Positions 56,607-60,757 of a DNA stretch of 64,000 bases are shown here, in pieces (positions within the stretch are counted from its first letter, which is position 1; every line of letters starts with the position of its first letter). Both the position numbers and the translations under genes were made by a program. The DNA is from Gordonibacter urolithinfaciens. GTDB taxonomy: Bacteria; Actinomycetota; Coriobacteriia; Coriobacteriales; Eggerthellaceae. Under the pieces are notes generated by a model. The model did not search any database. It saw only the letters and a list, made by a program, of their open reading frames with translations, and had not been told where the DNA came from. Location of the stretch: positions 2,356,001 through 2,420,000 of the forward strand of contig NZ_LT900217.1 in NCBI RefSeq assembly GCF_900199375.1. Direction: 5' to 3'.

Positions 56607-57560
56607 TTAGCCTATCGAGCGGTCCACGGCCTCCTCGGCCACGGCCATGGGCACCGCCCCGGCCGATGCGACGACGGGCGTGCCGGCTGTGCCCGGCAAG
56701 ATGCCGTCGAGCTCGTCCATGAGATGCTGCGCCTTCATGCGGTGCACCTCATGGATGGGCGTGCGGCCGAACTTCGCGTTGTAGATGAGGAACGTTGCCA
56801 AGCCGGTGAAGAACAGGCCCGCAACCGCCAGGAAGAACGATCCCAGATGCAGGAGCCCCTCGCCGAACTCGCCCATCGCAAACGACACGCCCACATTGTA
56901 CATGTTGTAGCCGCCCACGGGGATCATGACGCTGAAGCCCTGCCCGGCGAAGTTGGCGAGCGCGCCCGACACGCCGAGCGGCGCGAGGATGGCTCCGCAG
57001 AACCATGCCGTGAGCAGGATCCACACGGGCTTGCACTTCGGCGTGATGCCCTTCACCACCAGGTACACCACCTGGAACAGCGCGCACAGCCCGCCGCCCA
57101 CCAGGAAGGCCAGCGGGAACACCATCGCGGTCGTGTTCTTCTCCACGGCTACCATCGGCTCCACGCCCATCGTGCCGCAGACGAAGCCGAGCAGGATGCT
57201 CAACGCGGCCGCCACGGCATTGAACCAGATAACCAACCACAAACCCTGCCACACCGCCTTGCCTGCGGTGGCGTTCTGCTTCGTCCAGGGCCCTACCATC
57301 TTCATGCCCACGGCCATGGCGAAGCCGGAGAACGGCAGCAGCGCGCCGAACGTGCCCCATTCCTCGACCAGCTGGTAGTTGGCGAAGCCTCCCAGTATGC
57401 AGCCGATGATGCCCATGCTGATGAGCGTCGATCCGCCGATGAAGAACTGCATGGGCGTGCCGGTGAGCACGTTGGTCCACACGGTGACGAGCGCCTGGGC
57501 GACGAGTGCGAGCACACCGCCGATCAGAAAACTGTAAATCACGGTCTTGTAGGCTTTCAT
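56607..57560 (-). CDS. SpoVA-like membrane protein with two tandem SpoVA units
   Basis: A 317-residue integral membrane protein. Two halves repeat the SpoVAC/SpoVAE-type pattern: YSFLIGGVLALVAQALV...LPFSGFAMAVG (about residues 8-90) and FPLAFLVGGGLCALFQVVYLVVKGITP...IPVGGYNMYNVGV (about 150-240). SpoVA proteins of endospore formers make the dipicolinate channel; this organism should not sporulate, so another solute or stress role is expected. AGGGGGG precedes ATG 57560. The C-terminal 60 residues are soluble. Confidence 0.6.
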   Translation of the reverse strand: MKAYKTVIYSFLIGGVLALVAQALVTVWTNVLTGTPMQFFIGGSTLISMGIIGCILGGFANYQLVEEWGTFGALLPFSGFAMAVGMKMVGPWTKQNATAGKAVWQGLWLVIWFNAVAAALSILLGFVCGTMGVEPMVAVEKNTTAMVFPLAFLVGGGLCALFQVVYLVVKGITPKCKPVWILLTAWFCGAILAPLGVSGALANFAGQGFSVMIPVGGYNMYNVGVSFAMGEFGEGLLHLGSFFLAVAGLFFTGLATFLIYNAKFGRTPIHEVHRMKAQHLMDELDGILPGTAGTPVVASAGAVPMAVAEEAVDRSIG

Positions 57561-58178
57561 CGAAGCAATCCCCCCTGTAGGTTCCGATAACGTGACGTGC
57601 GCGAAAGCGCGAGACGCCGCCATTGTACCGGCGCGTGGAGGGAAGGCATCGACCCATGCGTACTAGCCCCCTGTTGATTTTCGTCCACACGAGGGGATGA
57701 ATCGTGCTGCATGATTGGGGAAAACCTCAGATGGGAATGCTGATAAGGAGGGGGTGGCGAAGACGGTGGAAAGCAGGAGAGCCGGAAACGCGGCACGTTT
57801 CCGGCTCCTGTGTTTCAGACCTCTTCCAGTATAAGATGATATCTACTATTAGGCAATACCAGCAGAGATGATTTTTTCACTGACCGAAAATCCCCGTCGT
57901 TCCGCGGATTTGCCCCTGCTCTCCCCGTTCCCGCGTTTCAGCGAGAAGGTGACGAGGGGAAGGGGCTGGCAGGCGCTTCGGAAAGAAGCAAATGCCAAGG
58001 CAAAGCATTTGCTCGTTGAGCAAAGACGGCTGGCCGATGCCGCTGGCAGACGGGCGAGCGCGTGCGTTTCCGTGCGGTGCGCGGGGGGGGCGAGCGCCGC
58101 ACGGAAACGCGCACCGTGCGACGGAAGCTGCGCGACGGGAAGGATACGCGCCAAGGCGGGGGAGCTGGGGGCGCGGCG
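57561..58178. other. Gene-free region with hairpins
   Basis: No convincing gene. Hairpins: AGGAGAGCCGGAAACG/CGTTTCCGGCTCCT (57775-57809) with CTGTGTTT behind it; AGCAAATGC/GCATTTGCT (about 57987-58013); and GTGCGTTTCCGTGCGG/CCGCACGGAAACGC (58062-58114), which may terminate the minus-strand gene ending at 58179. A GTACTAG at 57661 resembles the regulon element only in part. Confidence 0.55.
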
Positions 58179-59376: not shown

Positions 59377-59709
59377 ATGGATACCTACTACCACCCGGAA
59401 GACCTCGACAAGTTCTCGACGATGGGCGAGGAGGCCCCCGAGCTCTGGGACCTCTACATGGCCTACTACGGCAAGGTGTTCGCCGAGGGCGCGCTCACGG
59501 CGCGCGAGAAGGCGCTCATCGCGCTGGCGGTGGCCGGGGCCGTGCAGTGCCCGTACTGCATCGACTCCTACACGCAGTCGTGCCTGGAGAAGGGCGTGAC
59601 CGAGGAGCAGATGACCGAGGCCTTCCACGTGGCCAACGCCATCCGCGGCGGCGCCGCGCTCGTGCACGGCGTGCAGATGAAGAACGTGGTCAAGCAGCTG
59701 GAAATGTAG
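59377..59709 (+). CDS. Arsenosugar-associated CMD-family protein
   Basis: A 110-residue AhpD/CMD-fold protein with the redox motif CPYCIDSYTQSC (CxxC, His replaced by Tyr) and the family core EKALIALAVAGAVQ. It lies 2 bp ahead of arsS, and proteins of this sort are typical partners of ArsS (the arsenosugar biosynthesis-associated peroxidase-like group). It may reduce or hold an arsenic or thiol intermediate. ATG 59377 has GGAAGGG and GAAGG upstream. Confidence 0.82.
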   Translation: MDTYYHPEDLDKFSTMGEEAPELWDLYMAYYGKVFAEGALTAREKALIALAVAGAVQCPYCIDSYTQSCLEKGVTEEQMTEAFHVANAIRGGAALVHGVQMKNVVKQLEM

Positions 59710-59711
59710 CC

Positions 59712-60716
59712 ATGCCGGGAACCAGCGAACAGGCCCAGGCCGTCATGGACTCGTTCCCGCCGTTCTACGAGCGGACGGACGAGGCCACGCGCCGCACGCA
59801 CGAACGGCTCGACGTGCTGCAGGTGAACGTGGGCCGTCTGTGCAACCTGGCGTGCCGGCACTGCCATATGGACGCCGGCCCCGTGCGCACCGAGGTCATG
59901 GCGCGCGAGACGCTGCAGCAGTGCTTGGACGTGGCCGCGGGCCGCGGCTTCAAGACGCTCGACGTGACCGGTGGCGCCCCCGAGATGAATCCCGACTTCG
60001 AATGGCTCATCCGCGAGGGGGCGGCCCGCGGCCTGGACATCATCGTGCGCTCGAACCTCGTGGTGCTGCTCGACGAGCCCTACCGGCACCTGCCCGAAGT
60101 GTTCGCCGAGCTGGGCGTCACCGTGTTCGCCTCGCTGCCCCACTACACGGCGAAGCCGGTGGAGAAGCAGCGCGGCGCGAACACGTTCGACGGCGTCATA
60201 GCCATGCTGCAGAAGCTGAACGCGCTCGGCTACGGCGCGTCCGAGGGTGCGGGCGGAAAAGGGCTGGTGCTGAACCTCGTGTTCAACCCGAGCGGCGCGT
60301 TCCTGCCCCCCGACCAGGAGGCGCTGGAGCGCGAGTACCGCGCGAAGCTGGCGGAGGACTACGGCATCGTGTTCGACCACGTGTTCGCCATCGCGAACAA
60401 CCCGCTCGGGCGTTTCGGGAACCTGCTGCACAAGACGGGGAACTTGGAGCGCTACATGGGCAAGCTCGTGGGCGCGTTCAACCCCGATACCGTGCCGGCC
60501 ATGATGTGCCGCAGCCAGCTCTCCGTGGGCTGGGACGGCGCGCTGTACGACTGCGACTTCAACCAGGCGGCCGGCCTGCCCTGCAGAAACGGCCTGACCA
60601 TCGCCGACTTGGCGGCCGACCCGACGCTGTCGCTGCAGCGCAACATCGCGTTCGGCAACCACTGCTACGCCTGCTGCGCCGGCGCCGGCAGCAGTTGAGG
60701 CGGCTCCACGGCGTAG
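59712..60716 (+). CDS. arsS: Radical SAM protein ArsS, predicted selenoprotein (UGA at 60696-60698)
   Basis: ArsS catalyses a radical SAM step in arsenosugar biosynthesis. The cluster motif CNLACRHC lies near residue 47, followed by TGGAPEMNP. The C-terminal DUF3641-like part has MCRSQLSVGWDG and DCDFNQAAG. A normal reading stops at TGA 60696 after HCYACCAGAGSS. ArsS proteins usually continue SSCGG at that point. Here TGA stands where that Cys is expected and is followed by GGC GGC TCC ACG GCG TAG, giving SS-U-GGSTA with Sec329 of 334 residues. A SECIS-like hairpin begins 9 bases after the TGA. Without recoding, the protein ends at 60698 with 328 residues. Confidence 0.85.
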
Positions 60717-60730
60717 TTTGCGCCGTAAGG
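60699..60730 (+). promoter_or_regulatory. Candidate bacterial SECIS hairpin of arsS
   Basis: ACGGCG (60708-60713) pairs with CGCCGT (60721-60726) around the loop TAGTTTG. The loop is 16-22 nt behind the UGA, within the range known for bacterial SECIS elements. Confidence 0.6.
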
Positions 60731-60757
60731 GTTCCGTCGTTCTGCGAACGACGGAAC
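60731..60757. terminator. Hairpin after arsS
   Basis: GTTCCGTCGTTC (60731-60742) and its perfect complement (60746-60757) form a 12-bp stem with a 3-nt loop between convergent genes; no T tract. Confidence 0.6.

Follow-up and report, generated by a model that had tools for sequence, protein, structure and literature searches.

Is the TGA codon near the 3' end of arsS in Gordonibacter urolithinfaciens a true stop codon, or is it read as selenocysteine (Sec), and what might a selenol do in a radical SAM protein named after arsenic metabolism? To answer this we examined a window of 64,000 nucleotides (positions 2,356,001-2,420,000 of the single-contig 3.29 Mb genome), together with relatives drawn from species-level genomes and also from the family and the class. 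As judged by sequence comparison, the product of arsS is almost certainly a radical SAM protein of the ArsS family that contains selenocysteine.

The reading frame of arsS and its product

Under the standard code the arsS reading frame terminates at 60698, which is where the initial annotation had expected standard gene finders to halt. The same annotation had read the C-terminal motif as SS-TGA-GG with a frame staying open to a TAG 15 bases further on; the TGA lies exactly where this implies, to the base, and 15 nt of sense codons separate it from the TAG (Table 1). The feature end that it gave, 60730, has to be corrected to the last base of this TAG. The layout with the UAG inside the downstream hairpin is also seen in Sec-type Eggerthellaceae relatives.

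Table 1. Positions of features in the window and of conserved residues in ArsS, with two loci from relatives
Feature	Position	Strand	Details	Evidence
AhpD/CMD-domain partner (TIGR04169 perox_w_seleSAM)	59377..59709	+	CPYC motif	NCBIfam 189.9 bits vs cut-off 120; Pfam CMD
arsS	59712..60716	+	ATG start 59712; 334 aa with predicted Sec329; tail GSSUGGSTA	TIGR04167, Pfam, translation
In-frame UGA (predicted Sec329)	60696..60698	+		opposite TGC/TGT in 76 relatives, TGA in 20 others
Tail codons 3' of the UGA	60699..60713	+	GGC GGC TCC ACG GCG (GGSTA), 15 nt	GG[AST]TA-stop also in Cys-type relatives
UAG stop of arsS	60714..60716	+	within the hairpin; its G opens the apical loop	sequence
Bacterial SECIS-type hairpin	60708..60726	+	stem 60708-60715 / 60719-60726; apical loop GUU 60716-60718	folding, Sec-specificity, compensatory changes, bSECIS criteria
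Radical SAM motif CX3CX2C in ArsS	C44, C48, C51			invariant in 70 sequences
DUF3641 cysteines in ArsS	C266, C281, C318, C321			invariant in 70 sequences
ArsM-like/Cys-type ArsS open frames in relatives (examples)	G065:C47:109079-111097; G066:C1:278179-280197

The product matched TIGR04167 (rSAM_SeCys) over the whole protein with 387.4 bits (cut-off 300), contained the Pfam domains Radical_SAM and DUF3641, and carried the C-terminal SS[C/U]GG motif in its U form. The closest public ArsS, from Gordonibacter pamelaeae, was 93% identical. When the region was compared with plasmids, megablast returned nothing and a protein search found distant ArsS only (less than 60% identity), most of them, among the matches listed, annotated as (seleno)protein ArsS. 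Searching the PDB by sequence gave a single weak radical SAM match. The AlphaFold2 model had a mean pLDDT of 92.7, with most residues above 90 and the tail at about 47-66 (last residues near 47); the Sec tail is predicted to be mobile because of this low pLDDT, low confidence being no proof of mobility. A Foldseek search with the model retrieved radical SAM enzymes, SPASM/twitch members among them (SkfB, SuiB, BlsE, EpeE, MoaA), at TM scores of about 0.5; these matches to a predicted structure fit the domain reading and add no substrate.

Elsewhere in the window, positions 56607-57623 (minus strand) encode a protein that weakly matches the spore stage V proteins AC and AE (45 and 34 bits, below cut-off), here in an actinobacterium.

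A SECIS-type hairpin and its distribution among relatives

The initial annotation had pointed to ACGGCG and CGCCGT flanking TAGTTTG at the right distance for a bacterial SECIS. Both arms are present (60708-60713 and 60721-60726), and RNAfold added a U-G and an A-U pair, giving a stem of 8 bp around GUU. Published bSECIS criteria are a loop of 3-9 nt, a stem of 4-16 bp, a G in the first two loop positions, a spacing of 16-37 nt and an MFE of -7.5 or lower (PMC13188914). The arsS hairpin agrees with the bacterial consensus described there in all of these respects, having a loop of 3 nt with G first, a stem of 8 bp, a spacing of 17 nt from the UGA and, when folded alone, -10.8 kcal/mol. The arsS hairpin differs in not being wholly coding: it spans the stop codon and extends into 3' untranslated sequence.

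The 45 nt starting at the UGA folded with an MFE of -21.7 kcal/mol, against an average of -14.4 for shuffled sequences (z -2.97), and none of 200 shuffles was as good. Hairpins with G first in the loop and placed exactly 17 nt downstream occurred at 0.41% of window positions for stems of at least 6 bp, and at 0.06% for stems of at least 8 bp. Counting against the element, about 2-3% of simple sequence shuffles gave a hairpin as strong as this one when any placement was allowed, so that the window sequence taken singly is suggestive only. Its GUU loop also counts against it, since most relatives have GGUC or GGUCU. GGUC is the loop of E. coli fdhF as well. A scan with a lenient E-value for an Rfam family in the arsS region gave chance miRNA/sRNA matches only, and no such assignment was kept. 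Just 3' of the hairpin, at 60731-60757, there is a perfect 12-bp inverted repeat (GTTCCGTCGTTC/GAACGACGGAAC) that lacks a T-run and may be a terminator or a repeat.

It is the comparative evidence, not single-sequence folding, that decides the selenocysteine case. Among 97 aligned C-termini, the codon at the Sec329 site was TGA in 21, TGC in 54 and TGT in 22, and TAA or TAG in none; every one of the 21 stops at this site was thus TGA. Homologues ending naturally at this position, which the initial annotation had named as grounds for rejecting its reading, were accordingly not found. The tail GG[AST]T[AE]-stop was common to Sec-type and Cys-type ArsS. At a required score of at least 14, a hairpin was present at the expected place in 16 of 19 Sec-type genes versus 5 of 70 Cys-type genes over all relatives (p=9e-11), and in actinobacterial genes only, with the same mean GC, in 16 of 16 versus 1 of 26 (p=1e-10); the p-values of this and the other Sec/Cys comparison below overstate the significance because the relatives are non-independent samples.

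Moreover, the hairpin covaries. Across 15 distinct hairpins, 88 of the 90 cells in the six loop-proximal pairs were paired, a value that 0 of 20000 column shuffles reached; the result is somewhat biased toward structure because loop length was picked per sequence for maximal pairing and sequences with fewer than five of the six pairs were dropped (17 of 20 kept). The third pair, which links the wobble position of the final Ala codon to a base 3' of the stop, appeared as G-C, C-G, U-A and A-U, and the sixth as G-C, C-G, A-U and G-U. In a maximum-likelihood tree obtained with a short search, at least 7 changes between Sec and Cys fell on well supported branches, and the shortest count gave 9.

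Two variants of the C-terminus were also observed. In one relative (L083:4961-4978) UC (TGA TGC) replaces CG, giving a Sec-Cys pair in SSUCGETA, and two more distant Coriobacteriia sequences (L162 and L165) read SGU(Q/H)GTLL and then reach a second TGA, which is probably the real stop.

Selenium machinery and alternative readings of the TGA

The genome contains a complete Sec machinery. Searches identified selA (470.6 bits), selB (350 bits), tRNA-Sec (selC, 70.6 bits; anticodon tca by ARAGORN) and selD (336.9 bits; one in-frame TGA, read GGUAAK), all within about 13 kb of one another, and YedF was found as well. A lack of Sec machinery, the other observation that the initial annotation had held able to overturn its reading, can therefore be discarded. 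Within the family, SelA was detected in 17 of 18 Sec-type ArsS genomes versus 3 of 12 genomes with stand-alone Cys-type ArsS (p=1.3e-4; genome sets assembled by hand), the one exception being a 56%-complete genome. Besides selA, selB and selC, the selenium cluster itself (L131 1-13571, about 13 kb) holds the Sec-containing selD, yedF, a gene resembling class V aminotransferases and a transporter of the formate/nitrite type, with some of these names assigned by eye.

Two other readings of the TGA have to be weighed against these results. If it were a true stop, the protein would end in ...GAGSS, the last Cys and the tail would be lost, and the hairpin would be incidental or a terminator. Standard gene finders do end arsS here, and the loss of a few terminal residues might be tolerated. 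Nevertheless, we regard this as very improbable, considering that relatives never place TAA or TAG at the site, that the codons 3' of the TGA are conserved, that the hairpin covaries and hardly ever occurs in Cys-type genes, and that selD of the same genome has an in-frame TGA of its own; a terminator role is further opposed by the missing T-run after the hairpin. That the TGA is instead a sequencing error or a recent nonsense mutation in a pseudogene is a negligible prospect and already refuted, because the TGA is conserved across genera: it recurs in three other Gordonibacter species-level genomes, other Coriobacteriia and Lachnospiraceae, and apart from the TGA the frame is undamaged, every catalytic Cys being kept. 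No evidence in favour of an error or a pseudogene was found. The proposal of a selenocysteine at the ArsS C-terminus is independently supported by the alternation of Sec and Cys at the exact codon and by the Sec-specific, covarying hairpin.

By standard knowledge of the process, SelB with GTP and Sec-tRNA(Sec) would bind the hairpin downstream of the UGA and Sec329 would be inserted, after which the ribosome would melt the hairpin and terminate at the UAG five sense codons past the UGA.

Function of the Sec-type protein and comparison with known systems

The AhpD-like gene ends 2 nt upstream of arsS (its frame could begin at GTG 59341). A homologue of it precedes ArsS genes, at a distance of up to about 1.5 kb, in 20 of 21 Sec-type cases and in 68 of 76 Cys-type ones. 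The partner is also more conserved than ArsS itself, with a median identity of 74% compared to 53% and a higher value in 82 of 84 loci, across phyla. We tentatively suggest, as a plausible but still somewhat doubtful proposal, that the selenol of Sec329 takes over from the usual thiol and would either reset the enzyme or serve to bind or reduce a soft substrate, for example a trivalent arsenical, and that the adjacent CPYC protein probably acts with it. Sec329 may be carried on a flexible C-terminal tail behind C318/C321 of the DUF3641 (twitch-like) domain, a placement that, like the role of the selenol, is less certain than the insertion of Sec.

With regard to arsenic, the genome holds no ArsM above the curated cut-off (best 59.6 bits versus 263; nothing below 1e-30). 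Two genes considered as ArsM candidates (L141 and L142) were rejected for scoring under the curated cut-off; the former (L141 1372-2109), about 20 kb from arsS, encodes a distant ArsM-like methyltransferase with three Cys that is under all curated cut-offs. In many Eggerthellaceae, including other Gordonibacter, a single open frame about 700-1,090 codons long joins an ArsM-like methyltransferase domain to a Cys-type ArsS, an arrangement not present in this genome. We infer an arsenic role for the Sec-type copy only indirectly, since its name derives from that of the family and from work on cyanobacteria, and no curated ArsM is found here. Of the earlier description as selenium in an arsenic-metabolism enzyme, the selenium part thus stands and the arsenic part reduces to family naming.

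It is conceivable, and to be taken seriously as a minority view, that the protein is a selenoprotein with no part in arsenic metabolism, the AhpD-paired stand-alone ArsS working on some other substrate, soft or redox, and this branch bearing the name ArsS wrongly. Such a reading is consistent with no ArsM scoring above the curated cut-off, with the nearly universal and more conserved partner, and with the fact that the ArsM link in relatives belongs to a different, fused Cys-type copy. Against it, ArsS exceeds the TIGR04167 equivalog cut-off, other gut microbes or the distant methyltransferase could supply methylated arsenicals, and cyanobacterial ArsS has been reported to act in arsenosugar biosynthesis, according to the passages citing that work in PMC12159101 and PMC8552651. 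We put forward, as a conjecture that is unlikely in its full form, that in gut Coriobacteriia the Sec-tailed stand-alone ArsS and its AhpD-like partner form a two-protein radical SAM/selenol system whose substrate would not be dimethylated arsenic and whose function would be distinct from that of ArsM-linked fused Cys-type ArsS.

Returning to the selenocysteine-containing ArsS, its recognition has a consequence for annotation, as callers that take TGA as a stop strip the Sec residue and the tail from such genes. The repeated Sec/Cys interchanges within one family provide a natural comparison of both forms, and a gut organism offers a way to find out what a radical SAM enzyme gains from a selenol; the matter also bears on whether gut Coriobacteriia process organoarsenicals.

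TIGR04167 is described as a predicted selenoprotein family with a GxxU motif and AAR34688.1 as example, for which both reviews cite their bSECISearch reference (PMC13188914, PMC9312934). These reviews, and the NCBI family name, rSAM_SeCys / arsenosugar biosynthesis radical SAM (seleno)protein ArsS, bear out the remark in the initial annotation that some ArsS are already annotated as selenoproteins. The bSECISearch work reportedly dates from 2005, and because the family has been listed as selenium-containing since then, selenocysteine in ArsS is real yet largely expected. No dedicated study on ArsS as a selenoprotein or in arsenosugar biosynthesis was found in the literature searched. The protein is therefore no new kind of thing, it is a well supported further member of a known selenoprotein family.

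Compared with the known systems, the ArsS of the window resembles TIGR04167 in its full-length match, its SSC/UGG C-terminus and its AhpD-like neighbour of TIGR04169. There is no defining difference, the particulars here being a host among the gut Coriobacteriia and a stop codon in the SECIS loop. Cyanobacterial ArsS belongs to the same family by name and domain but works with ArsM, of which the present genome has no curated match. This genome also encodes a second ArsS (L132 5824-7836, G000:C1, at about 2.62 Mb), which matches TIGR04167 with 367.6 bits and shares the C-terminal motif, but has Cys at the Sec position (tail SSCGGTIVQE) and an N-terminal extension of about 365 residues, with metallophosphoesterase-like motifs recognised by eye and no Pfam match.
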